DNA of 64,000 bases from Candidatus Acetothermia bacterium (GCA_024653345.1 JANLFV010000003.1:1-64000); one strand, 5' to 3'. Positions 418 through 24,235 are shown, counted from the first letter of the stretch. The notes: generated by a model from the sequence alone, not told the origin. Translations and numbers: made by a program.

Positions 418-1866
418 TTGCGAAGCATGCGGATGGCCTGGATCTTGCTTATCTTGTTCTCCCTGCTCGCGGGCCTTTCTCAGGCCGAGCCGGGGCAGCT
501 GCTGATTGTCGATGCGAGCAATTCCCCGAGCGAGGACCTCGACGGGGACGGCCTCTTCAGGACGATTACCGCAGCGGTCCAGGCTGCGAGATCAGGGGAC
601 CTCATCACGGTAGCACCCGGAAGGTATGATGCCTCTCTCGGCGAGAGTTTTCCCATCACCATCGACAAGGACTTGACCATCGAAGCCAGCGGCGGCCCGG
701 CGGAGACGGTGATCGATGCGAGCGGCGCAGCCGGAGCAATTGAGATCCGGCGCGGCTCGGTTGCCTTCCACGGGTTCACCCTTCAGGGAGCCAGCGGGAG
801 CAGGGCGGCAGGGATCGCTGTCATGGGGAGTGTCCGCAGTGTGAAGATCAGCGGCAATGTGGTGCAGGATATCGCTACCGTAGAGGGCTCCTACTCCTTC
901 GGCATTCGCATCTACCAGGTGGAGACGGGCCTGGTGGAGGTGGCCGACAATGTCGTCCAGCGCGTTGCGGGGAACGGGATCTCGGTCGGCCACTCCTCGG
1001 CCGCGGTCGAGGTGCGAGGCAACATCGTCCGCCAGATCACGAGGGCGATGATCGACGATGTAGAATACTCAGTGGGCATCGCGCTCAACGCCTCGACCGG
1101 GGTCACCGTCGAGGGGAACGATGTCTCCCAGGCCGCGCTGGGGATCAGCCTGATGGGCTCGACTGGCTGCCTCGTCCGGCGGAACAGCGTCCACGACAAC
1201 TTCCAGCCCGAGCCGGTCTCGCATGCCCTCCTCACCCTCGCGGGGGTCGAGATCACTACCCCTGGCGAGGAGATCCTCCTGGCCTTCGGCTCCCACGGGA
1301 ATGCGATCCTAGAGAACGAGATCGAGGCCAACGGGACGGGGATCGGTCTCTATCTCGCCGATGGCAACCAGATCGGCGGCAATCTCGTCCGGAATAATCG
1401 GGCGACAACGATCGCCTGGCAGGGGGAGATAGCCCACGGCCTGGGGATCGCCGTGGACTACAGCAATCGCAATCTGATCTTTGACAGCACGATCCAGGGG
1501 AACGGCGACGTGGGGCTGGTCCTGAAGAACGCCGCGCTCAACCTTGTCCAGCGGAACCTGATCGCCGATCACGCGGACTCCGGGATCATCATCGTTGAGG
1601 GCAGCGGAAGAGCTGCCAACGCCATCTCGGGCAATGAGGTCAGCGGAGCCGGGGTGGGGATCAAGGTCAAGAGCGGCTTCAGCGAGATCAACCGGAACGC
1701 GATCACTGCCAACGGCGTGGGGATCGAGCTGATGCAGACCGCTGAGGCTCGCGATCATGCGGTGGAGGAGAACAACATTTTCGGGAATGGCTTTGGGTTC
1801 GTCAATAATGGCCGCGGGCTGGCCCGGGCTGAAGAGAACTGGTGGGGCGACCTGAGCGGGCCATAG
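418..1866 (+). CDS. Secreted right-handed beta-helix (NosD-like) protein, cut short by an in-frame TAG
   Basis: The protein has a signal peptide (hydrophobic stretch LLILFSLLAGLSQA) followed by an opening found in pectate-lyase-like repeats (FRTITAAVQAARSGDLITV) and many short Asn/Gly-rich parallel beta-helix turns such as GNDVSQAALGISL. Such proteins bind or cleave polysaccharides outside the cytoplasm; no active site can be assigned. The TTG at 418 sits 5 bases after GGAG; an ATG at 427 is the alternative. Codon 483 is TAG, in the middle of the typical ending NWWGDLSGP-x-HPRLNP. The same frame continues for 29 sense codons to TAG at 1954-1956 and completes the motif, so a Tyr codon has probably become amber, or the TAG is read through. 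Confidence 0.8.
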   Translation: MRSMRMAWILLILFSLLAGLSQAEPGQLLIVDASNSPSEDLDGDGLFRTITAAVQAARSGDLITVAPGRYDASLGESFPITIDKDLTIEASGGPAETVIDASGAAGAIEIRRGSVAFHGFTLQGASGSRAAGIAVMGSVRSVKISGNVVQDIATVEGSYSFGIRIYQVETGLVEVADNVVQRVAGNGISVGHSSAAVEVRGNIVRQITRAMIDDVEYSVGIALNASTGVTVEGNDVSQAALGISLMGSTGCLVRRNSVHDNFQPEPVSHALLTLAGVEITTPGEEILLAFGSHGNAILENEIEANGTGIGLYLADGNQIGGNLVRNNRATTIAWQGEIAHGLGIAVDYSNRNLIFDSTIQGNGDVGLVLKNAALNLVQRNLIADHADSGIIIVEGSGRAANAISGNEVSGAGVGIKVKSGFSEINRNAITANGVGIELMQTAEARDHAVEENNIFGNGFGFVNNGRGLARAEENWWGDLSGP

Positions 1867-1956
1867 CACCCCCGGCTCAACCCCCTCGGGAAGGGTGATC
1901 AGGTGGGCGGCGAGGTGGACTTCGAGCCCTGGCGGCTCACCGCGGTGGGGAATTAG
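1864..1956 (+). other. In-frame C-terminal continuation of the beta-helix protein beyond the TAG
   Basis: After TAG (1864-1866) the same frame reads HPRLNPLGKGDQV followed by GGEVDFEPWRL and ends at TAG 1954-1956. Beta-helix proteins of this group commonly end with NWWGDxSGPYHPxLNPxGxGDxVxxxVDFxPW, so this stretch is clearly coding in origin and the TAG stands exactly where Tyr is expected. It is either a one-base nonsense mutation, a sequence error or a readthrough site. Confidence 0.75.
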
Positions 1957-1970
1957 GCTGGCTTCCCGGC

Positions 1971-4136
1971 TCAGAGCCCCGGGTCGACATCGATCTTGAC
2001 TCCCTCCCGGCCGAGGGCCTCCAAGCCAGCCCTGACGGCCTGGTGCAAGGCTGCTCGATCCTTCCCCTTCAGCAACAACTGCCATTGGTAGCGACCCCGG
2101 ACGCGCGCCGGTAGGCCCGCGACCGGGCCGAGAACCTCCAGCCCGTCGGCTAAGAGGCCCTTCCATCGCTCGGCCTGCTCCTCTGCTCGCGCCCGATCGG
2201 CCCCCTCGACCGTCAGCTGGATCAGCTCTGTGAACGGCGGGTAGCCCAGCTCCTGGCGGAAGCGGAGCTCCTGATCGTAGAACTTGGCGTAATCCTGCGC
2301 GGCCGCCGCCTGAATTGCGTAGTGCTCCGGATGGTAGGTCTGGATGAGGACCTCCCCGCCCTTCGGTCCCCGCCCGGCCCGGCCCGCGGCCTGGGAGATC
2401 AGTTGGAAGGCCCGCTCGCCCGCGCGGAAGCCCGGCAGGTCCAGCGTTGTGTCCGCGGAGACGATCCCCACCAGGGTCACATTGGGGAAGTCCAGGCCCA
2501 CCCCGATCATCTGGGTCCCGAAGAGGATCGCGATCTTCCCCTGGCGGAAGGCCTCAAGAATCGGGCCGTGCTCACCTCGCCGGACGGCGTCCGAGTCCAT
2601 CCGGCGGACGACTGCCGCGGGAAAGAGCCGCTCGAGCTCGAGCTCGACCTGCTCCGTCCCCAGGCCGAGGAAAAGAAGCTCGCTCGAGCCGCACCGCCGG
2701 CAGCGGGGATGCCTTAGAGTATACCCGCAGTAGTGGCAGAGAAGCTCCTGGGCGCGGAGGTGATAGACCAGCGGGATCTGGCAGCGCGGGCAGCGGATCA
2801 CCGCCCCGCACTTCCGGCAGAGCGCGGTCGAGAAGCCCCGCCGATTGAGAAGGAGGATCATCTGCTCGCCCCGGGCAAGCCGACTCGCGATGGCCTCCCT
2901 CAGCCTCTTGCTCAGGACGGTCGAGGGCCGCTCGCCCCGCATATCGATGATCTCAACCTCCGGCGCCCCCACGCCGACCACCCGCTCCCGCAGCTCGAGG
3001 AGCTCGAACTCCCCCTGCTGCGCGCAATAGTAGCTCTCGAGGGTCGGTGTCGCGGTCCCGAGGATGACCGTGGCTCGGCTCAGCTGTGCGCGCTTCCGGG
3101 CGACTTCGCGGAGATGATAGCGCGGGGCCGGCTCATCTTGCTTGTAGGTCGGCTCATGCTCCTCGTCGACGACGATCAGCCCCAGGTTGCGGAACGGGGC
3201 GAAGATCGCGGCACGGACGCCGATCACCAGCCTCGCCTCTCCCCGGACCATCCTCGCCCACTGCCGGGCAAGCTCCGCGGCAGTCAGTCCTGAATGATAC
3301 ACAGCAATCTGCTCGCCGAAACGGTGCCTGAACCGGGCGACGAGCTGGGGGGTGAGCGAAATCTCGGGCACGACAATGATCGCCTCCCTTCCCAGCGCGA
3401 GGGCCCTTGCCGCGGCCTGCATGTAGATCTCCGTCTTCCCGCTGCCGTTCACCCCGTGAAGGAGGAATGTCTTTGCCGCCGTCGTTTCGAGGGCTCTGAT
3501 CACTCGAGAGAGGGCTGCCTGCTGCTCGCCCATCAGCTCGACCTGGGAAGGCGGCTCATGGAAGTCGCGGGCGGGAGGACCCGAGGCCGGCTCGATCGCC
3601 AGTAGGCCCTTCGTTTCCAGGCTCCTCAAGACGGCCCTCGTGCAGCCGGCCGCTGCGAGAAGCTCCTGCTCGCTCGGGGCCGAGGCCAGGCGGAGGAGGG
3701 TCTGGAGGAGGACCCGTTGCTGGGGCCCTCTCAAGCCTTCGAGCTGGGCGAGGGCCGCTTCCAGGCTCACCCCCAGCTTCACATATCTCGCAGTCCGGCC
3801 AGGCCGGCCCCCAACGCGCACCTGCTTGGGGACGAGCCCCTTGAGGACGATCCCCAGCGGGGTCAGATAATACTCGGAAAGCCAGCGGGCCAGCTCCAGG
3901 CGCTGACCGTCGAGGACCGGCTCAGGGTCGAGGATCTCGAGGAGCGGCTGCAGCTCGCCCTCATATCCGCTCCGCTCCTTAAGGCCGATAAGGAAGCCCT
4001 CGACGGCCTTTCCACGGAAGCTGACGCGCACCCGCTTCCCGACCTCGGCCTCCTTGAGGAAGAGCGGAAGGACTCGGTAATCGAAGGTCCGATCGGCATT
4101 GACCGGGAGGGCCACCTCGGCGACCGCTCGTTCCAT
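1971..4136 (-). CDS. priA: Primosomal protein N', replication-restart helicase PriA
   Basis: PriA reloads the replisome at stalled forks as a 3'-5' superfamily 2 DNA helicase. The 721-residue product is close to the usual length. It has the N-terminal 3'-DNA-binding domain (about residues 1-110), Walker A GVNGSGKT (about 228-235), the DEEH box (about 324-327), the aromatic-rich loop following it (YKQDEPAPRYH), and two Zn-binding clusters of paired Cys (about 440-452 and 467-482, CRKC, CPRC, CHYC, CRRC) inserted in the helicase core. It is transcribed away from the MBL-fold gene behind it, whose stop lies 45 bases upstream, and a TTGGCC-17-TAGATT promoter ends 9 bases before the ATG, so the mRNA is probably leaderless. 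It converges on the beta-helix gene. Confidence 0.97.
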   Translation of the reverse strand: MERAVAEVALPVNADRTFDYRVLPLFLKEAEVGKRVRVSFRGKAVEGFLIGLKERSGYEGELQPLLEILDPEPVLDGQRLELARWLSEYYLTPLGIVLKGLVPKQVRVGGRPGRTARYVKLGVSLEAALAQLEGLRGPQQRVLLQTLLRLASAPSEQELLAAAGCTRAVLRSLETKGLLAIEPASGPPARDFHEPPSQVELMGEQQAALSRVIRALETTAAKTFLLHGVNGSGKTEIYMQAAARALALGREAIIVVPEISLTPQLVARFRHRFGEQIAVYHSGLTAAELARQWARMVRGEARLVIGVRAAIFAPFRNLGLIVVDEEHEPTYKQDEPAPRYHLREVARKRAQLSRATVILGTATPTLESYYCAQQGEFELLELRERVVGVGAPEVEIIDMRGERPSTVLSKRLREAIASRLARGEQMILLLNRRGFSTALCRKCGAVIRCPRCQIPLVYHLRAQELLCHYCGYTLRHPRCRRCGSSELLFLGLGTEQVELELERLFPAAVVRRMDSDAVRRGEHGPILEAFRQGKIAILFGTQMIGVGLDFPNVTLVGIVSADTTLDLPGFRAGERAFQLISQAAGRAGRGPKGGEVLIQTYHPEHYAIQAAAAQDYAKFYDQELRFRQELGYPPFTELIQLTVEGADRARAEEQAERWKGLLADGLEVLGPVAGLPARVRGRYQWQLLLKGKDRAALHQAVRAGLEALGREGVKIDVDPGL

Positions 4137-4145
4137 CCCAATCAG

Positions 4146-4174
4146 AATCTACCCCATCTCGCCCCGGCGGCCAA
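4146..4174 (-). promoter_or_regulatory. Predicted leaderless promoter of priA
   Basis: On the minus strand TTGGCC (4169-4174), a 17-base spacer and TAGATT (4146-4151) lie directly before priA; only 9 bases separate the -10 from the ATG at 4136. A start site at the usual distance from the -10 would fall at or next to the ATG. There is no Shine-Dalgarno site. Confidence 0.55.
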
Positions 4175-4181
4175 GAGGAGC

Positions 4182-5087
4182 CTAACTCCGATCGAGATAC
4201 TGGAGAACCCCCTGAGCATTCATGGTGATCTCGTGCTCGACCATCTGCGGGTCGTAGAGCCCCTCCAGGAACGGGCCATACTCCTCGAGGAGGGCCTGCT
4301 TGACCGCCCCATCGCCCCTGAGCTGCTTCCGGAGGCTGCGGATCTCCTCCACCCAGTCTTGGAGGAGCTTGGCGTATGTCTGGAGCATTGCCGCCGGTCG
4401 ATCATGCTCCCCGAAGTGAGTGTAGAGCAGCCGCTCCGGCTTCAGCGCCCGGAGGAGTTGGACTGACTCCAGGCTCCGCTCGAGATCGAAGGACGGCGGA
4501 GGGGTGGTCGGGAGGAGCCGATCTGCCTCAGGCCAGTAGATCCCGGCGGCATCGCCGGTGAAGAGGCTGCGGGTCTTCTGCTCGAAGAAGCAGAGGTGGT
4601 GGGGCGCGTGGCCGGGGGTGGCGATCGCTCTTATCTGGAAGCCCTCGCCGAGGCTGAAGAGTTCCCCGCCCTCCAGCTCGAGGAGCCGCTCTCGCGGGAT
4701 CGGGGCGGCTTGGCCGTAGTGGCAGAACATCGGGCCGGTGGCGTCGCGGACGCTCTTCACCAGGTAGGCGGGCTTGACCAAGTGCTTCGCGCCGCGCTCG
4801 TGGGCCGCGACGGTCGCGTTCGGACAGGCCTGGGCTAGCGGGCCGGCCCCGCCGGCGTGGTCGAGGTGGACATGGCTCACCAGGATGAAGCCCACTTCAT
4901 CTGGGGAGAGCCCCAGCTCTGCCAGGGCACGCAAGATCCGCGGGGCGGAGTAGGAGAGGCCCGTCTCGACGATCGCCGCGACGGGGGCATCAACGATGTA
5001 GGCCGCCCCGTAGCCTTCCAGGCCGAACTGGTTCGTGTCGACAAGGTAGATTCCGCCAAGACCCTCAAGCTCGCGCGCGTATTCCAT
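4182..5087 (-). CDS. MBL-fold metallo-hydrolase
   Basis: This is a cytoplasmic beta-lactamase-fold hydrolase with the metal signature HVHLDH (about residue 73 onward), a distal TPGHAPHH, the GDA ligand (FTGDAAG) and a late THFGEH. The arrangement resembles the glyoxalase-II/lactonase-like branch, but the substrate cannot be read from the sequence. About 90 C-terminal residues after the last metal ligand are mostly helical (DWVEEIRSLRKQLRG) and may close the active site. The ATG at 5087 is preferred over one seven codons upstream because GGAGG stands 8 bases before it. It lies between nudix-rpoB upstream and priA downstream on the same strand. Confidence 0.85.
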   Translation of the reverse strand: MEYARELEGLGGIYLVDTNQFGLEGYGAAYIVDAPVAAIVETGLSYSAPRILRALAELGLSPDEVGFILVSHVHLDHAGGAGPLAQACPNATVAAHERGAKHLVKPAYLVKSVRDATGPMFCHYGQAAPIPRERLLELEGGELFSLGEGFQIRAIATPGHAPHHLCFFEQKTRSLFTGDAAGIYWPEADRLLPTTPPPSFDLERSLESVQLLRALKPERLLYTHFGEHDRPAAMLQTYAKLLQDWVEEIRSLRKQLRGDGAVKQALLEEYGPFLEGLYDPQMVEHEITMNAQGVLQYLDRS

Positions 5088-5236
5088 CTCTTCCACCTCC
5101 AGGCGCAAGCTCCATGATAGGCCGCGCGGGACGCTGGGGCAAGCTCCTCCGATGGTAGGTGGCGTCGATCAGGCAGGACCTAGCGCGGTCGGCCTCGCCA
5201 GCGCCCTGGCAAGCACGGCATCAGCGAGTGCCCCGC

Positions 5237-5659
5237 TCAGCCGGCCTCGTTCAGGAACTGCTCCGCCTGGCGGAGGAGCCACTTGCTGTTGTCGTAGGTG
5301 AGGCGGGCCAGGGCCTCTTGGTAGCTGAGCCAGGCGAAGCCCGCGTGCTCGGGCGAGAGACGGACATCTTCCTCCTCGGTCTCACCGAGGAAGTAGATGA
5401 CCCTCTTCTGCACGGGCTGGCCTTCCCGGGCCAGGCCGTATTCGATCAGCCCTTGGAACCCTGGAACGAGCCTCGTGGAGCGGATCTGGGTCTCCTCGCG
5501 CAGCTCCCGACAGGCCGCCTCCTTGAGGTCCTCGTCGCGCTCGATCTGCCCCTTGGGGAAGGCCCAGTGGCCTTCGGAGTGCTGGAGGAGAAGATACCTT
5601 CGTCCCTCCGGCGCCCGCCGGAAGAGAATGACCCCTGCAGACCACTCTTCTTGGGCCAT
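5237..5659 (-). CDS. Nudix hydrolase, Ap4A-hydrolase-like
   Basis: The 140-residue protein is a single Nudix domain. The Nudix box is GQIERDEDLKEAACRELREE followed by TQI, so all catalytic glutamates of REXXEE are present while the Gly usually found after EE is Thr-Gln here. The opening SAGVILFRR and the WAFPKGQIE segment resemble bacterial and NUDT2-type diadenosine-tetraphosphate hydrolases, which remove Ap4A and related nucleotides; the exact substrate is inferred. The gene begins 31 bases after the stop of rpoB, in the position where rpoC is normally found, and has no clear ribosome binding site. Confidence 0.88.
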   Translation of the reverse strand: MAQEEWSAGVILFRRAPEGRRYLLLQHSEGHWAFPKGQIERDEDLKEAACRELREETQIRSTRLVPGFQGLIEYGLAREGQPVQKRVIYFLGETEEEDVRLSPEHAGFAWLSYQEALARLTYDNSKWLLRQAEQFLNEAG

Positions 5660-5690
5660 CGGCCGTCAGCTGTCCGCTGTCCGGTGACAG

Positions 5691-9068
<3,378 letters not shown>

Positions 9069-9111
9069 CTTTCACTCCTTAGCTTGGAATAGGGGAGCTG
9101 CTTCTTCCCCT

Positions 9112-9162
9112 TAAATGCTGCATTTAGCATACAAAAGGTAGACAAAGACCCGCCCTCGGCGG
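9112..9162 (-). promoter_or_regulatory. Structured rplL-rpoB spacer: possible attenuator and processing hairpins
   Basis: Read on the minus strand, the 109-base spacer holds CCGCC-GAG-GGCGG followed by GTCTTTGTC (hairpin at 9150-9162), then the perfect 15-base palindrome TAAATGCAGCATTTA (9112-9126), then a GGGGA/TCCCC stem near 9092-9110. E. coli has a partial terminator and an RNase III site between rplL and rpoB; the position is the same here, the function is inferred. Confidence 0.4.
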
Positions 9163-9177
9163 AGCCTGGAGCTCCTA

Positions 9178-9570
9178 TTACTGGAGTTCGATCTCCGCCC
9201 CGACTTCTTCGAGCTTGGCCTTGAGGGAGCGGGCCTCCTCCTCGTTCAACCCCTCCTTCACCACCGCGGGGAGGGTGTCGACGAGCGCCTTGCTCTCCTT
9301 CAACCCCTTGCCGGTGATCTCCTTGATCACCTTGATCAGCTGGACCTTCTGCTGGCCGGCGTTCTTCAGGACGACCTTGAAGGCGGTCTTCTCCTCGGCC
9401 ACGGCTGCTCCTCCAGCGGGAGCCCCACCAGCCGCGGGGGCACCGTGGACCGCGACTGAGGCAACAGCCTGGGCGCTCACCTTGTAGCGCTCCTCGATCG
9501 CCTCCACCAGCTCGGCCAGCTCCTTCACGGTCATCTGGTCGATCGTCGTCAGGATCTCCTCTTTATTCAT
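9178..9570 (-). CDS. rplL: 50S ribosomal protein L7/L12
   Basis: L7/L12 forms the stalk that recruits translational GTPases. The 130-residue protein has the N-terminal dimerisation helices ([20 protein letters not shown]), an Ala/Gly/Pro-rich hinge (about residues 42-58) and the globular C-terminal domain with [26 protein letters not shown] and the ending [13 protein letters not shown]. It starts immediately after the stop of rplJ with no intergenic base, so the two stalk proteins are translated together, as expected for the L10-(L12)n complex. Confidence 0.98.
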
Positions 9571-10200
9571 CTATCCTTCCTCCTTGTTCTCGGCAATCTC
9601 TTGCTGCTCGCTCTCTTCGCTGCTCTCTGCTACCGGCTCGACCGCCTCGGCCTGGGCAGCCGGTGCCGCGGTCGGTTGGGCCTCGCTCTCCTCGCGCTTC
9701 TTCCGGACGGCGTCCAGGGCGATGGCCAAGCGCCGGATGATGGCGCTAAGATCCGTGGCCAGCCTCTGGATCGGGGCCTGGAGCACAAAGGCCAGCCGCG
9801 CCAGGAGCACCTCCCGCGAGGGGAGCGTCGCGATGCGAGCGGCCTCGGCCGCCTCCACCACCTGTCCCTCGAGCAGCCCGCCCTTGATCGCATACTGCTT
9901 GTAGCGGCGCGCCACCTCGGTGGCCAACTTGAAGGGGAGGACCGCATCGCTGAAGCCGAACAGCACTCCCGTCGGCCCGACGAGGAACTGCTCGATCTCC
10001 AGGCCCGTCCGGGCGGCCGCGAGCCGGGCCAGGGTGTTCTTCACCACGCGATACTCCAGATCGCGCTTGCGGAAGAGCCGGCGCAGCTCGACCATCTCCT
10101 GGGCACTCAGCCCGCGGAAGTCAGTGAACACAAGCCCCTTGGACCGCTGGAACTTCTCCTCCAACAGGGCCAGCTCCTGCTCCTTCTTCGGGGTCGGCAT
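9571..10200 (-). CDS. rplJ: 50S ribosomal protein L10
   Basis: L10 anchors the L7/L12 stalk to 23S rRNA. The N-terminal rRNA-binding part shows GLVFTDFRGLSAQEMVELR and RVVKNTLARLA, followed by the alpha helix that carries L12 dimers. At 209 residues it is longer than the usual ~165-175 because of a C-terminal tail (from about residue 172) rich in Glu, Ala, Ser and Gln, of no known function. It lies 11 bases downstream of rplA in the rplKAJL-rpoB block. Confidence 0.97.
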   Translation of the reverse strand: MPTPKKEQELALLEEKFQRSKGLVFTDFRGLSAQEMVELRRLFRKRDLEYRVVKNTLARLAAARTGLEIEQFLVGPTGVLFGFSDAVLPFKLATEVARRYKQYAIKGGLLEGQVVEAAEAARIATLPSREVLLARLAFVLQAPIQRLATDLSAIIRRLAIALDAVRKKREESEAQPTAAPAAQAEAVEPVAESSEESEQQEIAENKEEG

Positions 10201-10211
10201 CCCTCACCTCC

Positions 10212-10931
10212 TCACAACATCCGCGCCGCGACGAGCCTGCTCAGCTCGTCGGGATCGAGCTTGATCCCCGGCCCCATCGTCGAGCTGACCGTGGCCGCGC
10301 GCAGGAATTTCCCCTTCACATCGGCCGGCTTCTCCTCGAAGATCGCCTGGGCCAGGGCCAGGAGGTTCTCACGGAGCTGGTCCGTGGAGAAGGAGCAGCG
10401 GCCGAAGGGCGAATGGATGTTCCCATACTCGTCGAGGCGGAACTCGACCTTCCCCTGCTTCAGCTCCCTCACCGCCTGGCCGATCTCGGCCGTGACCGTC
10501 CCGCTCTTCGGGGAAGGCATCAGCCCCCGCGGGCCGAGGATCTTCCCCAGGCGCCCGACGACCCCCATCATGTCCGGGGTGGCCACGGCCGCGTCGAACT
10601 CCAGCCAGCCCTCCTCGATCCGCTTCGCCAGGTCCTCGCCTCCCACGAGATCGGCCCCGGCCTCCTCCGCCTCCTTGAGCTTCTCGCCCTTGGCGAAGGC
10701 CACCACCCGGATCGCCTTCCCCACGCCGTGGGGGAGGATCACTGTGCCCCGGATCCGGTGCTCATTCTTCTTGGGGTTGACCGCCAGGCGGAAGGCCGCG
10801 TCCGCGGACTCGTTGAACGAGGCGGTGGCCAGCTCCTTCATCATCGCCAGGGCCTCGTCCAGCGGGTAGACCCTGGATCGGTCGACGCGCTCCTTGACCG
10901 TGACATATCTCCTGCTTCTCGCCTGGCTCAT
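10212..10931 (-). CDS. rplA: 50S ribosomal protein L1
   Basis: L1 forms the mobile E-site stalk of the large subunit and often represses its own operon. The 239-residue product has the two-domain L1 fold with [53 protein letters not shown] and PKSGTVT, all standard family blocks. Its ATG overlaps the rplK stop as ATGA, so translation is probably coupled to L11. Confidence 0.98.
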
Positions 10932-11365
10932 GCTTCCACCACCTCGATTCCCATCTGGCGGGCCGTTCCCGCGATCGTCCGCATCGCCGCCTCGAGGTCA
11001 TCGGTGTTGAGGTCGCTCATCTTCAGCTCGGCAATGCGCCGGAGCTGCTCCCTCGTGATCTTCCCCACGAACTTGATGTGGGGCTCGCCCGAGCCGGTGG
11101 CGATGCCCGCGGCCCGCTTGAGCAGGGCTGCTGCCGGCGGCTTCTTCAGGACGAAATCGAAGCTCTTGTCGATGTAGACCGTCAGGACGACGGGGATGAG
11201 CAGCCCCTTCTCCTCGTTCTTCGTGGCCTCGTTGAACTTGTTGCAGAAGTCCATGATGTTCACCTTGGCCTGGCCGAGGATCGGGCCGACGGGGGGAGCC
11301 GGGGTCGCCTGCCCTGCCGGGATCTGCAGCCGAATGACTGTCTCGACCTTCTTCGTCGTGGCCAT
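10928..11365 (-). CDS. rplK: 50S ribosomal protein L11
   Basis: L11 binds the GTPase-associated centre of 23S rRNA. The 145-residue protein has the N-terminal [17 protein letters not shown] block (the thiostrepton-binding region), [12 protein letters not shown], and the C-terminal RNA-binding domain with [16 protein letters not shown]-like VGKITREQL and [15 protein letters not shown]. It is 8 bases after nusG and overlaps rplA by four bases. Confidence 0.98.
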
Positions 11366-11373
11366 CTCTCCTC

Positions 11374-12441
11374 CTAGAGCTTCTCGATCCCCTCGAACCC
11401 GAGCTGGACCGGCGTCTCCCGGCCGAAGATCCGGACCATCACCGTGACCTGCTCGTTCTCCTTGTCGATCTCACGGATCTCGCCGGTGAAGTCCGCGAAC
11501 GGCCCCTCGACGATCTCCACCACCTCACCGACCTCGAAGTCGACCTCGACCCGCGGGCGCTCCTGCTTCGGGATCTCCTCGAGCCCGGCCTTCCGCTTCA
11601 CGACCTTCATCTCCCGCTCGGGGACCGGGAGAGGAGGGGAGCCGACGAACCGGCACTTCAGCCCCGAGACGAGCTTCAGCATCTGCTCGTCCATCTCCAT
11701 CCGGGCGAAGATGTAGCCCGGGAAGAGCCGGCGCTTCTCGATCTTCTGGACCGAGACGACCTGCTTGTCCTTATACTCCTTGACCTTGGCCAGCCCGGAG
11801 GTCCGGCTCACGATCCGGTCCTCCTTCTCCAGCAGGTCGCCCTTCTTCAGGCGCATCCCCTCGTGGAGCCGGACGAGGTAGCGCTCGGGGATGATCTTGG
11901 TCACGATCTCCCCGTCCTCTTTCTCCAGCTCGATCTTCTTCACCCGATCGCGGAGGGCGATCTTCCCCTTCGTCTCGGCGACGAACTCCTTGTCGGCCGT
12001 GAGGGGGATCCCGCTCCGGATCTTCTCCCCCATCCGGATGTCCCGCCGGATGTGCTCGTCCGCGGGGATGAGGTAGACCTCCTCGTTCCGGTTGGTCATC
12101 TCGATGATCACCCGCTGGAGAGGGGTGATGCTCACGACCGTCGCGTCGAACTCCATGTAGTAGGGAGGCTTGTAGGCGATGAGGTCGCCGTTCCTGATCC
12201 GGCGGTTGGACTCGATCGCCAGCTCGTAGTTGTAGGGGACACGATACTCCCCCGAGAGCCCGCGCTGGCTCTTGGAGGTGATCACCTCCTCCACCGGGGC
12301 GAGGAAGTAGGTCTCCTCGTGATCGACCTTGAACCGCTCGAACCGCTCCCCGAGGGCGAGCTCTTCCACCCGCCGCTCGAGCTCCTCCTTCACCTTAAGC
12401 TCGCTCCCCGCGTAGGTCTGAATGATATACCAGTGCTTCAT
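11374..12441 (-). CDS. nusG: Transcription elongation/antitermination factor NusG with a large inserted domain
   Basis: NusG links RNA polymerase to Rho and to the leading ribosome. The NGN domain is split: residues 1-51 ([19 protein letters not shown]) and 231-290 ([15 protein letters not shown]) enclose about 180 extra residues (roughly 52-230) rich in charged beta-strand sequence such as [18 protein letters not shown]. The C-terminal KOW domain is intact ([19 protein letters not shown], about 303-350). Most bacterial NusG proteins are 175-200 residues; Thermotoga NusG, about 353 residues with an insertion at the same place, is the known parallel. The gene lies 6 bases after secE, the usual order. 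Confidence 0.96.
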
Positions 12442-12447
12442 CTCGAC

Positions 12448-12636
12448 CTAACCTCTGATGAAGAACTGCAATAGTCGGGTGAAGAGCGCGTCGAGCGCCC
12501 CGGTGTAGAGGGTGAGGACGATGATCATCACCAACACAAGGATGGTCAGGCTGAAGACCTCGGCCTGAGAGGGCCAGTTGATCTTCCCGAACTCGGCGCG
12601 CACCCCTCTCAAGTATTGCTTAATCCTCGTAATCAT
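12448..12636 (-). CDS. secE: Preprotein translocase subunit SecE
   Basis: SecE is the clamp subunit of the SecYEG channel in the inner membrane. The 62-residue protein is the short, single-span form: an amphipathic N-terminal helix (KQYLRGVRAEFGKINWPSQAE, with the conserved KINWPS core) followed by one membrane helix (FSLTILVLVMIIVLTLYTGA). It lies between tRNA-Trp and nusG, a gene order conserved across bacteria. Confidence 0.97.
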   Translation of the reverse strand: MITRIKQYLRGVRAEFGKINWPSQAEVFSLTILVLVMIIVLTLYTGALDALFTRLLQFFIRG

Positions 12637-12642
12637 CTAAGT

Positions 12643-12718
12643 TGGCAGGCCCGGGAGGATTTGAACCCCCAACCCCCGGATTTGGAGTCCGGTGCTCTTC
12701 CAGTTGAGCTACGGGCCT
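12643..12718 (-). tRNA. tRNA-Trp (anticodon CCA)
   Basis: The minus strand folds as a 76-base cloverleaf. The acceptor stem pairs AGGCCCG with CGGGCCT, the anticodon stem-loop is CCGGA-CTCCAAA-TCCGG, the T loop contains GTTCAAATC and the 3' CCA is encoded. It sits between rpmG and secE. Confidence 0.97.
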
Positions 12719-12722
12719 ACAC

Positions 12723-12869
12723 TCAGGTCTCCTTATGCACGGTGTGCCGCTTGCACCACTGGCAATACTTCTGCAGCTCCAGCTTCCCCCGCATGTTCTT
12801 GGGGTTCTTCGTCGTGTGGTAGTTGCGGTGCCGACACTCGGTGCAGGCCAGGGTCACTTGCTCTTTCAT
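12723..12869 (-). CDS. rpmG: 50S ribosomal protein L33
   Basis: This 48-residue gene encodes a Zn-ribbon L33: CTEC near residues 9-12 and CQWC near 36-39 give four Cys ligands, with the family core [11 protein letters not shown] and [14 protein letters not shown]. Its ATG overlaps the stop of tuf as ATGA (12866-12869), so translation is coupled to EF-Tu. The order tuf, rpmG, tRNA-Trp, secE, nusG is the widespread bacterial arrangement. Confidence 0.96.
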
Positions 12870-14074
12870 TCCAGGATCTTCGTGACGACTCCAGCGCCCA
12901 CGGTCCGGCCGCCCTCGCGGATGGCGAACCTCAGTCCCTCCTCCATCGCGATGTGGTAGAGGAGCTCGCCCTGGATCCGGACATTGTCCCCCGGCATGAC
13001 CATCTCGACGTTGTTCGTCAGGTGGACCGTCCCGGTGACATCGGTCGTCCGGAAGTAGAACTGGGGCTTGTAGCCGTCGAAGAACGGCGTGTGGCGCCCG
13101 CCCTCGTCCTTACTCAGGACATAGATCTCGGCCTCGAACTTCGTGTGCGGGGTGATCGACCCCGGGGCGGCGAGGACCTGTCCGCGCTCGACCTCCTCCT
13201 TCTCCACGCCGCGCAGCAGGACGCCGATGTTGTCCCCGGCGATCGCCTCATCGAGCGTCTTGTTGAACATCTCCAGCGAGGTCGCGACCACCCTGCGGGT
13301 CTCGCTGTGGAGGCCGACGATCTCCACCTCGCTGCTGGGCGTGATCCGCCCGCGGTCGACTCTGCCGGTGACGACCGTCCCGCGCCCCTTGATGGAGAAG
13401 ATATCCTCGATCGGCATGAGGAAGGGCTTGTCGACATCGCGCTGCGGGAGGGGGATGTAGGTGTCGAGCGCCTCGACGAGCTCGATGATCGGCTTCGTGG
13501 CCTCCGGGTCAGTCGGGTTCTGCATCGCCTTGAGCGCGCTCCCGCGGATCACCGGGACCTCGTCCCCGGGGAACTCATACTGGTTGAGGAGCTCGCGGAC
13601 CTCCATCTCCACCAGGTCGAGGAGCTCGGGGTCGTCGACCAGGTCGATCTTGTTGAGGAAGACGATGATGTAGGGCACATTGACCTGGCGGGAGAGGAGG
13701 ACGTGCTCGCGCGTCTGGGGCATCGGCCCGTCCGCGGCGCTCACCACCAGGATCGCCCCGTCCATCTGGGCTGCGCCGGTGATCATGTTCTTCACGTAGT
13801 CCGCATGGCCGGGGCAGTCGATGTGGGCATAGTGGCGATTCGGCGTCTCATACTCGACGTGGGAGATGGCGATGGTGAGGATCTTCGTCTCGTCGCGCCT
13901 CCCCTGAGCGATCGAGGCCTTGGCGACCTCGTCGTAGCTCTTCTCCTTCGCCATCCCCTTCTGCGCCAGGACCTTGGTGATGGCGGAGGTGAGGACCGTC
14001 TTCCCGTGGTCGATATGGCCGATCGTGCCCACATTGACATGCGGTTTCGTCCGTTCGAAATGCGCCTTCGCCAT
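12866..14074 (-). CDS. tuf: Translation elongation factor Tu, variant switch I
   Basis: EF-Tu carries aminoacyl-tRNA to the ribosome. The 402-residue product has G1 GHIDHGKT, G3 DCPGH, G4 NKID and G5 GSAL, and intact domains 2 and 3 ([30 protein letters not shown]). Switch I is unusual: instead of PEEKARGITINTSHVEY it reads [19 protein letters not shown]. It is about five residues longer than the E. coli loop, lacks RGITI, but keeps the Mg2+-binding Thr; the residue after GKT is Val rather than Thr. I recall similar loops in some planctomycete and verrucomicrobial EF-Tu. The ATG at 14074 is chosen because AGGAGG lies 7 bases upstream. Confidence 0.97.
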
Positions 14075-20760: not shown

Positions 20761-20789
20761 TTGAGCTTCCGGGCTCATCCCATTAGACT
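20761..20789 (+). promoter_or_regulatory. Predicted leaderless promoter of the LptF/G-LptD gene
   Basis: TTGAGC (20761-20766), 17-base spacer, TAGACT (20784-20789); 8 bases to the ATG at 20798 and no Shine-Dalgarno site. Confidence 0.5.
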
Positions 20790-20797
20790 CTAAGCTG

Positions 20798-23700
20798 ATG
20801 AAGACCATCGACCGGTATCTTCTGCGCGAGCTGGCCTTCCCCTTCATCATCGCCCTCGTTGGCTTCCTCATCTTCATCCTGCTCAACCTGATCCTCGGGC
20901 TGAGGGACTTCATGCTCGACCGGTCGATCGGCCTCGGGACGATCCTCAGGCTCCTGAGCTATCAGCTCCCCTTCTTCCTCGTCCTCTCGCTTCCCGTGGC
21001 CACGCTCTTCGCCATCTTCCTCGCCTTAGGCAGGCTCGCGCACGATCGCGAGATCATCGCCCTGCAGGCGAGCGGGATCTCCCTGAAGAGGATCGTCCTC
21101 CCCATCCTCATCCTGAGCCTGGTCATCAGCGCCTTCGACCTCTTCCTCAACGACCGAATGGTCCCCTGGGCTAACTACCAATACCAGAGCCTCATCCGCC
21201 AGCTGATCCTCCGCCGGTCCACGCCACAGATCCAGGACAATACCTTCTTCAAGGACTCTTCGGGCCGATTCTTCTATGTCAAGCACTACGACCGCCGAAC
21301 CGGGCAGCTCGAGGGGATCATGGTCTACGACATGGCGGGGGCCGAATACCTCCCCGATCTAGGCGGCCGCTACCCCAATGTGATCGTCGCCGAGCAGGGG
21401 AGCTGGGACGGGGAGGTCTGGCTGCTCCAGGACGGCGTGATCCACAGATACGACGACCGGGGCCATCTGCAGTATGAGATGCGGTTCGCCACGCTCGCGA
21501 TCAACGTCGGCGCGGGCCTGGAGCAGCTCTTCCTCACTCAGCGGACGCCGCAGGAGATGAGCCTCTCCGAGCTGGCCGAGAAGATCCGGGTCCTGAAAGA
21601 GAGCGGCCTCCAGGCCGAGGGGCTGATCGTGGAGTTCCACTCGAAGATCTCCATCCCGCTTGCCGGGTTCATCTTCGCCCTCTTCGGAGCCCCGCTCAGC
21701 CTGATCTTCTCCGCGCGGAGCCGCGCGGCGGGGATCGTGCTCGGGGTCCTCTTCGTCGGCCTCTTCCAGGGGAGCCTCATCTGGAGCGAGACCCTGGGGA
21801 AGCGGGGGATCATCCCCCCGGCCCTCTCCGCCTGGCTCCCGAACCTCATCTTCGGGGGCCTCGGGCTCGCGCTCTTCCTGGTCATGGACCGGGCGAGCCA
21901 GCTCGACCTGCGGGAGCGGCTCCGCCGCGCACTCCGGCTCCACCTCATCCTGGGAGCGATCCTCGCGCTCCTCGGGGGCAGCGGCCTGGCGGCGGAGAGG
22001 CCGAGGCTGGAGCTATCGGCCGATCGGCTCACCATCTCCGAGGACTGGAGCAGGGTGAGCACCACCGGCCAGGTTCTAGCCCAATACGGCGAGGGCTCGA
22101 TCAGGGCCGAATCGCTGGAGCTGGCCCGCGACGGCCGCCAGTGGGAGCTCCGGGCGCGGGGCGGGATCAGGCTCTCCCTCGGCGAGCTGGAGGCCGAGGG
22201 GAGCGAACTCGTTGCAATGCTGGAACAGGACGATGCGGGCGGGCTCAGTCTGCGGGAGGCCGAGTTCTCCGGGCACGGCCCCGACCGTTCCAATGAGGAG
22301 TTGGACCGAGCGGAGGTCGGGAAGGCCCGGATCGCCTACCGAGGCGGGCGGCTCGCGGCGGAAGAGATCAAGCTGACAAGAGCCGCGAGCGAGGAAGAGA
22401 GCTGGCTGGCCGAGGCCCGCGGAGGGGTGGTCCTGGAAGAGGAGCGGCAGAGCACCACCGCGGAGGAGCTCAAGCTCCGGTTCACCTTGAAGGACGAGGC
22501 ATTCCATGCCGAGGTCGCGGAGCTCGAGGCCTTCGCCGGCGAGGGCAGCTTCGTCAACGCTAGAGGAGAGGAGCACCTCCTGCGCTACCAGGGGAGGCGG
22601 GCCACGCTCTCCTTCGACGCCGAGAACGAGATCTCGCTACTGAACATCAGGACCGGCGACTTCACCACTTGCTCCTGCAGCGCCAGCATCGAGAAGGAGA
22701 GCTACTCCATCAGTGCTGACCGGCTTCTGGTCTTCTCCGATGACCTGCTGGTCGCCACGAACATCACGCTCCGGGCCTTTGGGGTCCCGATCTTCTGGGC
22801 CCCGCTCTACCTGGCCCCACTGAAGGAGGAGCAGAAGAGCCCCTTCCTCCCGGAGATCGGGCGAAGCGCCCTCCGCGGCTGGTATGCGAAGTGGCGGCTC
22901 CCGTTCATCTTGAGCGAGAGGACCTACGGCTCCGTGCTGCTCGACTACTTCAACCGCTACCGGCAGTTGGGGAGCGGGCTTGATCTGAACTTCAACATGC
23001 TGGGCCACATCGGCTCGCTCCATCTCTACAAGATCTTCGGCGAGCTGGGGCTGCTCGAGCTCGCCCTCAGCGATCGCGCCGAGCTCCCTCGAGGGGTAAT
23101 GCTCAGCCTTGCGGCCGACTATCGCAGCCAGGTCGAGGCGGAGGCCGAAGGCCAGCACATGGGCTATCAAGCCCAGCTTTCCGGCTCGCGGGCCGACTGG
23201 GGCTGGGCCCTCAACTTCAGCCAGGACCAGTATGTAGGCATCCCGGCGGAGGGCGAAGAGATCAGGTATCGCGCGCTCGTGCGCCTGCCCGAGCTAGCGC
23301 TGAGCCACAGAGTCCAGCGGCTCGGGCCACTCGGCTACTCCCTCAGCTTCCAGTGGGGGCGGTATCAGGAGCGGAAGCTGGATGGCACTCAGCTCGAAGG
23401 GACCCGATTTGCCGGGCTGGTCAGCCTCGGGCTGGAAGGGATCTCCCTCCACGAGGGCAAGCTGAGCCTCCGCCCCTCGGCGAGCTATCAGGTCTCATTC
23501 TACGGCTCGACGCGGATGGAGACGCTCTCGGCCGCGACGAGCCTGAGCCTCCTCCCCCTGGAGAGGCTCTCGGTCTCATTAGCCCATAGCTACCGGCTGG
23601 TGCGCGGCTCGAGCCCCTTCGCCTTCGATACCCAGATGCAGCTGAATCGCCTCGACCTGCGAGGGGCCTGGAGCTCGCAGACCCTCCAGGGGAACCTCGC

Positions 23701-24235
23701 CACCAGCTACGACTTGGAGAAGGCGAGCTTCGACCCGCTCAGCTTGGGCTTGAACTACCGCCTCGGCCTCGGCAGGACGACGATGAGGCTCAGCTATGAT
23801 CTGAACCGGGGCCAGCTCCAGCAAGCCACGATCCAACAGACCCTGGCGCGCGAGGGCTGGTCCTTCTCTGCCGAGACGGGCTACAATTTCGTCAGCAAGC
23901 AGTTCTCGGACTTGATCGCCAAGCTCGCGCTCGAGCGGTTCAAGATCGGCCTCCGCTATGACCTCAATAGTCTCCTCCTCAAGCGGATCAACTCCGAGGT
24001 ATCGCTCGAGCTGGGGGAGGACTGGCGGCTCGCGCTCGCCGGGGAATATGACCTGGGGACGGGGCAGCTCGGCGCGTTCCAGTATGGCGTGGTGCGGAGC
24101 TTCTGCCACAACTGCTGGGAGATCGGGCTCTACGGCGAGCGGGGGCGGGTCTGGCTCCAGGCGAAGATCAATGCCTTCCCGACGGCCACGATCAAGTATT
24201 CCCCGACCGACCAGGAGCTGGCCTTCGGGGAGTAG
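20798..24235 (+). CDS. LptF/LptG permease fused to an LptD-like outer-membrane protein
   Basis: One frame of 1145 residues. Residues 1-365 are a complete YjgP/YjgQ (LptF/G) permease: three membrane helices, a periplasmic domain (about 120-275), three more helices ending GGLGLALFLV. Residues 373-399 (RERLRRALRLHLILGAILAL, then LGGSGLAAE) look like a signal peptide with an AxA-type site. From 400 follows an LptA/OstA-like beta-jellyroll (LELSADRL, VSTTGQVLAQYGEG), then an LptD-type region (DFTTCSCSAS, FGVPIFWAPLYLAP, SPFLPEIGRS, about 620-690) and a barrel with strands of alternating polarity to the C-terminus. Cys625/627 and Cys1103/1106 match the N- and C-terminal cysteines that LptD pairs as disulfides. 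Normally LptF/G and LptD are separate proteins. No LptB or second permease gene is nearby. Confidence 0.88.
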   Translation: MKTIDRYLLRELAFPFIIALVGFLIFILLNLILGLRDFMLDRSIGLGTILRLLSYQLPFFLVLSLPVATLFAIFLALGRLAHDREIIALQASGISLKRIVLPILILSLVISAFDLFLNDRMVPWANYQYQSLIRQLILRRSTPQIQDNTFFKDSSGRFFYVKHYDRRTGQLEGIMVYDMAGAEYLPDLGGRYPNVIVAEQGSWDGEVWLLQDGVIHRYDDRGHLQYEMRFATLAINVGAGLEQLFLTQRTPQEMSLSELAEKIRVLKESGLQAEGLIVEFHSKISIPLAGFIFALFGAPLSLIFSARSRAAGIVLGVLFVGLFQGSLIWSETLGKRGIIPPALSAWLPNLIFGGLGLALFLVMDRASQLDLRERLRRALRLHLILGAILALLGGSGLAAERPRLELSADRLTISEDWSRVSTTGQVLAQYGEGSIRAESLELARDGRQWELRARGGIRLSLGELEAEGSELVAMLEQDDAGGLSLREAEFSGHGPDRSNEELDRAEVGKARIAYRGGRLAAEEIKLTRAASEEESWLAEARGGVVLEEERQSTTAEELKLRFTLKDEAFHAEVAELEAFAGEGSFVNARGEEHLLRYQGRRATLSFDAENEISLLNIRTGDFTTCSCSASIEKESYSISADRLLVFSDDLLVATNITLRAFGVPIFWAPLYLAPLKEEQKSPFLPEIGRSALRGWYAKWRLPFILSERTYGSVLLDYFNRYRQLGSGLDLNFNMLGHIGSLHLYKIFGELGLLELALSDRAELPRGVMLSLAADYRSQVEAEAEGQHMGYQAQLSGSRADWGWALNFSQDQYVGIPAEGEEIRYRALVRLPELALSHRVQRLGPLGYSLSFQWGRYQERKLDGTQLEGTRFAGLVSLGLEGISLHEGKLSLRPSASYQVSFYGSTRMETLSAATSLSLLPLERLSVSLAHSYRLVRGSSPFAFDTQMQLNRLDLRGAWSSQTLQGNLATSYDLEKASFDPLSLGLNYRLGLGRTTMRLSYDLNRGQLQQATIQQTLAREGWSFSAETGYNFVSKQFSDLIAKLALERFKIGLRYDLNSLLLKRINSEVSLELGEDWRLALAGEYDLGTGQLGAFQYGVVRSFCHNCWEIGLYGERGRVWLQAKINAFPTATIKYSPTDQELAFGE

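Follow-up and report, generated by a model that had tools for sequence, protein, structure and literature searches.

An LptF-LptD fusion gene across the Bipolaricaulota: one chain for the machines of two membranes, most likely cut in two

In Escherichia coli the Lpt system is made up of LptB2FGC - LptA - LptDE, and to our knowledge all described Lpt systems have separate genes for their inner- and outer-membrane parts. Here we describe a gene of the Bipolaricaulota that joins two of these parts, i.e., an LptF/LptG-type permease and the outer-membrane protein LptD, in one polypeptide, which is most likely processed into two. The Bipolaricaulota resemble E. coli in having an LptF/G-type permease, homologues of LptB, LptC and LptD, beta-taco domains and conserved cysteines in the periplasmic and barrel parts of LptD. 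They differ in that LptF and LptD form one polypeptide with a putative internal signal peptide, in the single LptF/G per genome and in that LptA was not detected and LpxC is absent, presumably with no ordinary lipid A. The Negativicutes and Halanaerobiales also have a single LptF/G homologue, LptB and OstA-domain proteins, but they make LPS and sequence searches revealed no LptD in them (PMC5007114), while in the Bipolaricaulota LptD is joined to LptF. Borrelia burgdorferi likewise keeps Lpt without LPS synthesis, the cargo being debated, although its lptF, lptG and lptD are separate genes and it has a separate LptA (PMC10353723, PMC11784454). We found no description of an LptF-LptD fusion in the open-access literature, which was the part covered. 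A fusion extending over a phylum is strong genetic evidence of partnership between LptF and LptD, here in a lineage in which no LpxC was found.

The fused frame and its two halves

The window analyzed, a stretch of 64,000 nucleotides (JANLFV010000003.1:1-64000), comes from a Candidatus Acetothermia genome (GCA_024653345.1) that belongs to the Bipolaricaulota; its relevant features are listed in Table 1. The original prediction had read here a single frame of 1145 codons with a permease followed by an OstA-like domain and an LptD barrel, and this has been borne out. The frame is open from ATG to TAG, with no stop inside, and gives an uninterrupted protein of 1145 amino acids in which Pfam recognizes the permease and the predicted structure the LptD part. 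The motifs quoted at the time were located at residues 621–625 (DFTTC), 661–674 (FGVPIFWAPLYLAP) and 681–688 (SPFLPEIG). In the AlphaFold model of the full chain (mean pLDDT 86.5) six permease helices extend to residue ~367 and are followed by a helix at 371–391, a beta-taco at ~404–674 and a barrel of ~26 strands.

Table 1. Position of the LptF-LptD gene and of its parts within the window.
Feature	Coordinates	Strand	Details
Promoter-like element	20761..20789	+	TTGAGC 20761-20766, 17-nt spacer, TAGACT 20784-20789, 8 nt before ATG
LptF-LptD gene (putative polyprotein)	20798..24235	+	1145 codons, ATG..TAG; fused in 75/82 phylum genomes with near-complete LptF domain
LptF/LptG-type permease domain, residues 1-365	20798..21892	+	PF03739 E 7.6e-92; structure match Z ~22
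Junction, residues 366-399, putative internal signal peptide / seventh TM helix	21893..21994	+	Junction scans; predicted helix 371-391
LptA/LptD-type beta-taco ("OstA-like") domain, periplasmic, residues 404-674	22007..22819	+	LptD_N matches; predicted fold
TTCSC motif, residues 623-627	22664..22678	+	C625 36/36, C627 34/36
FGVPIFWAPLYLAP...SPFLPEIG, beta-taco-to-barrel transition	22778..22861	+	W667, P669, L675, P685, G688 invariant
LptD beta-barrel, ~26 strands, residues 686-1145	22853..24232	+	AlphaFold/Foldseek/VIA-align
C1103 and C1106 (FCHNC), turn before last strands	24104..24115	+	C1106 36/36

The permease half is matched by the Pfam family LptF_LptG (PF03739) over residues 6–361, scoring 308.5 bits (cut-off 27.9). 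It has six TM helices, TM3 and TM4 being separated by a periplasmic beta domain, and the structures that its model matches are those of LptF (6mjp_F and 8frp_F). Because the scores of both NCBIfam equivalogs, LptF (193.9 bits, 3.1e-57) and LptG (182.9 bits, 6.6e-54), are below their cut-offs (230 and 240, respectively), it can be assigned to neither and is best called LptF/G-like, not clearly LptF nor LptG. PF03739 also finds a match in Thermotoga maritima.

Pfam finds hardly anything in the C-terminal part (LptD_N, E 0.18, in the window protein), and the identity of this part therefore needed other evidence. Modeled alone it reached a pLDDT of 91.4 and a pTM of 0.75, and the first 37 Foldseek matches were all solved LptD chains (E 4e-21 to 1e-7), the first match of another kind being FimD (E 9e-6). 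In VIA-align the LptD rows lead as well (Z 17.8–16; rmsd 8.2 over 556 aligned residues in the top row), with other barrels at 14.3 or less. When a profile made from the alignment of 36 fused relatives (A3) was compared with the PDB sequences, LptF and LptG came first, followed by the LptD chains 8h1r_A (2.6e-4), 4n4r_A (6.9e-4) and 9i9z (2.5e-3); LptA appeared too, weakly, and nothing else up to E 1. With the C-terminal part only, 8h1r was found at 9.3e-4 and 4n4r at 0.66. The NCBIfam LptD models match 8 and 2 of the 36 members (NF003358 in 8, best E 1.5e-5), and Pfam LptD_N matches 13 of 34 relatives. If this part were another large outer-membrane barrel and not LptD, one would understand that the window protein has no Pfam match there at E 0.01 and that the curated LptD barrel profile PF04453 has none in 60 relatives nor in the own genome. 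However, the structural matches are all LptD down to the 37th, with a gap before the next fold, the profile and family matches lead to the same protein, and an unfused homologue has BamA, Skp-like proteins, LptF, LptC and FabZ as neighbors, so that we find another barrel scarcely credible. PF04453, which finds a match in only 2 of 14 control genomes, was dropped as an LptD marker; we read its silence as showing divergence from proteobacterial LptD, not absence of homology. DUF3769, a family of cyanobacterial LptD-like proteins, is weakly matched by two relatives (best E 0.0025). The divergent LptD sequences of the Bipolaricaulota could help in the search for the LptD that has been reported as absent from other diderm Terrabacteria (PMC5007114).

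The whole protein contains exactly four cysteines, C625, C627, C1103 and C1106, all of them within the LptD part, and C625 and C1106 are invariant in the 36 aligned members. The LptD of E. coli has cysteines in the periplasmic domain and in the barrel that are joined by disulfides; by analogy, C1103 and C1106 are candidate disulfide partners of C625 and C627.

Upstream of the gene, 29 of 35 loci have a TANNNT box that precedes the start by 4–9 nt (6% in shuffles), and few Shine-Dalgarno-like matches precede the gene in these loci. With a −10-like box so near the start and so few Shine-Dalgarno matches, the transcript is probably leaderless and monocistronic. Leaderless transcription of the LptF-LptD gene looks common in the phylum.

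Distribution and history of the fusion

A scan of the collection gave 56 loci in named public genomes, and the fused ones were nearly all labeled Bipolaricaulota, Acetothermia or Fraserbacteria. Two with other labels, L118 (Neomarinimicrobiota) and L098 (Atribacteria), are both placed in the Bipolaricaulota by our census. The scan detects only genomes matching two peptide patterns, so fusions with a very different LptF could escape it. In the census of 100 genomes of the phylum, a near-complete LptF domain was found in 82, and in 75 of these it was fused, i.e., LptF lay in a stop-free frame of 950 codons or more. The same fusion with a constant boundary is thus found in relatives, which are far from being all split into two genes with a stop between them: genuinely split genes are limited to two genomes of one family (G032 and G038, family f8). 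The other shorter frames run off the end of a contig (G047, G040, G074 and G027) or, in one case, are broken: the frame of G098 has 504 codons, with no LptD detected in a genome that is 69% complete. At the locus L092 (CP070725.1), in a 69%-complete genome, the LptF frame stops a short way past the junction and downstream of it LptD was not detected; either loss or an assembly error could explain this short frame.

The majority of the genomes are metagenome-assembled, and one could suspect that a stop codon was missed or that the contig is chimeric. However, the boundary is identical in many independent assemblies across several families, with no stop inside, and the fusion is also present in two single-contig genomes (G020 and G022) and in loci from independent projects. 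The census rules out a sequencing error or missed stop as the cause of the fusion, and we give an artefact of any of these kinds a practically negligible probability.

Each genome has one LptF/G; no second full-length copy was found in the census, in which second matches were few and all fragments. Some genomes have no LptF/G at all, namely G019, G021, G055 and G101 (genus g11) and four of family f8. BamA is present in G019, G021, G055 and the f8 genomes of this group, and it is possible that the LptF/G-less genomes lost Lpt and kept the outer membrane.

The closest relatives outside the phylum are MAGs of Bacillota/Limnochordia, a Melainabacteria MAG and an Eremiobacterota MAG. In all of these lptF and lptD are separate; they are adjacent in L106, L110, L111, L115, L112 and L117 and ~3 kb apart in several others. 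The adjacent pairs have halves homologous to those of the fusion and arranged in that order, and their LptD signal peptide stands where the fusion has its junction, but they are two genes with a stop between. LptF stops right after TM6 and LptD starts with a classical signal peptide, the start of lptD lying from −4 to ~+90 nt from the lptF stop; in L112 the two overlap (ATGA). The L106 locus (1768-13896), from a Limnochordia MAG, is an outer-membrane cluster with BamA, Skp-like proteins, LptF, LptD and LptC, then FabZ.

Trees were built separately for the LptF and the LptD domains, and both agree in separating the split pairs from outside (one group, 100/100) from the Bipolaricaulota. The split family f8 falls inside the fused group as sister to f7, with support of 98/96 in the LptD tree and 87/56 in the LptF tree, with long-branch warnings. 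The simplest history would be that the genes fused once, at the base of the phylum, and were split again later in f8; separate fusions are a possible alternative. Family f8 belongs to the same class, and its two split loci lie in an lptC-lptB-lptF-lptD operon. Because its genes are separate and it is nested in the fused tree, f8 indicates that the LptF and LptD halves can work as two chains. A Shine-Dalgarno match is flagged at the f8 lptF start in L054, and is readable further upstream in L055.

The junction and the fate of the chain

In the window, the junction consists of a charged n-region, ASQLDLRERLRRALRL, followed by a hydrophobic core, HLILGAILALLGG, and a signal peptidase I-like site that can be read as GLA|A (cut at 21991/21992) or LAA|E; with the predicted site the segment is QLDLRERLRRALRLHLILGAILALLGGSGLA|AERP. 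AlphaFold gives pLDDT below 50 across residues 380–402. In all 47 fusions examined, TM6 is directly followed by a positively charged segment, a hydrophobic stretch and several small residues in a row. The hydrophobic stretch (15–29 residues) could be resolved from TM6 in 46 of them, all with a net charge of +1 to +5 in a 14-residue segment around the beginning of the core. Scored with a simple in-house scheme, not SignalP, the best cut site has alanine at −1 in 31 fusions, glycine in 14 and serine in 2. By an independent rule, a signal peptidase-like site was detected in 39 of the 46 junction segments and in 154 of 400 TM segments located elsewhere in these proteins (Fisher p 1.8e-9). The junction corresponds to the signal peptide of the separate LptD of unfused relatives.

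Two readings had been offered for the fusion, a trans-envelope single chain and a product that is cut. The signal peptide-like junction, seen in 47 of 47, and its correspondence with the LptD signal peptide both favor the second. We consider it likely that the polyprotein is inserted via Sec and then cut by signal peptidase I into LptF and LptD. Loss of the stop codon between lptF and lptD would have created the polyprotein. The ribosome and Sec would insert the six LptF helices, and the retained LptD signal peptide would act as a seventh segment (N-in/C-out) that carries the LptD part into the periplasm, where signal peptidase I would cut at the small-residue site. The LptF permease would remain in the inner membrane, probably as a homodimer driven by LptB and working with LptC, and LptD would be freed for insertion into the outer membrane by BAM. 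We infer both the cleavage and the homodimer from the genes. The fusion also implies that delivery of an outer-membrane barrel protein takes place at the tail end of an inner-membrane protein with several helices. Genes for signal peptidase I, LptB, LptC and BamA are present, those for signal peptidase I being two in the own genome, one of them just past the end of the window (G000:C25:64232-64783). Weak points are that the −3/−1 residues in the window (G-L-A or L-A-A) are usable, not ideal, that 7 of the 46 junctions miss the strict site rule and that the nesting of f8 is weaker in the LptF tree. Signal peptides located behind a membrane domain are also less usual substrates of signal peptidase. 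The fbcH gene of Bradyrhizobium encodes a cytochrome b/c1 polyprotein that is cut after synthesis, where likewise a polytopic membrane protein comes first, then an internal signal peptide and then the exported partner; the proteins are unrelated to those described here and both products remain in the inner membrane.

If the chain were never cut, the seventh helix would anchor it and LptF-LptD would be one covalent bridge from the inner to the outer membrane, pump and gate in one molecule. An open frame that stays in register is found in 75 genomes, the hydrophobic segment at the junction is of membrane-spanning length in many members and a fused chain would tie the partners together at a set ratio, all of which would suit such a bridge. 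Its reach, however, estimated from ~16 beta-taco strands at 0.48 nm plus a linker of ~12 residues, would be at most ~12 nm, below the usual periplasm, whose width is assumed here. The enrichment of signal peptidase-like sites at the junction and the persistence of both halves as separate genes in f8 also speak against it, and the polar detachment of the outer membrane reported for Bipolaricaulota (PMC10665443) would strain a fixed bridge. We regard an uncut chain as unlikely.

Translation initiated internally near the junction could also give two proteins with no cutting, and in the window codon 363, where TM6 ends, is an in-frame ATG. This ATG is neither conserved nor accompanied by a Shine-Dalgarno match. 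Among the 47 junctions there is no conserved internal start: most have no ATG, four have none of ATG, GTG or TTG, and a start codon together with a Shine-Dalgarno-like match was found in only 4. The full-length product would still be made. Internal initiation was set aside for the absence of a conserved start, and we consider it very unlikely.

Other Lpt components and the cargo

The original prediction had left outside its view whether lptA, lptB, lptC and lptG exist elsewhere in the genome, and had named a separate lptD as well among the genes to look for. LptB and LptC were found, whereas a second LptF/G and a second LptD or LptD-like copy were not found in the own genome and LptA was not detected. 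The lptC and lptB genes adjoin (G000:C11:282014-283269), LptC at G000:C11:282035-282508 (E 4.7e-12) and LptB at G000:C11:282556-283263 (315.8 bits against a cut-off of 240). For a separate LptA, PF03968, a profile that is insensitive here, matches in the own genome only the fusion and a beta-helix-like protein. A weak LptD_N match at G000:C25:88201 was rejected as LptA, since it sits in this repeat protein of 1789 amino acids. The protein, probably a right-handed beta helix, is encoded in L146 at 3347-8716 (G000:C25 ~87.3-92.7 kb). BamA (Omp85) was found in 56 of 60 relatives.

LpxC was found neither in the own genome nor in the 60 relatives searched, though the Lpt machine is kept, and because of this we infer that the cargo cannot be ordinary lipid A. 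Bipolaricaulis Ran1 has been reported to lack LPS genes (PMC6092417), and Lpt without LPS is known in other diderms (PMC11784454, PMC10353723). The fusion thus bears on what Lpt carries when lipid A is absent. As a minor observation, transposase/integrase-like fragments lie next to the lptC-lptB pair in L145 (7191-8452).
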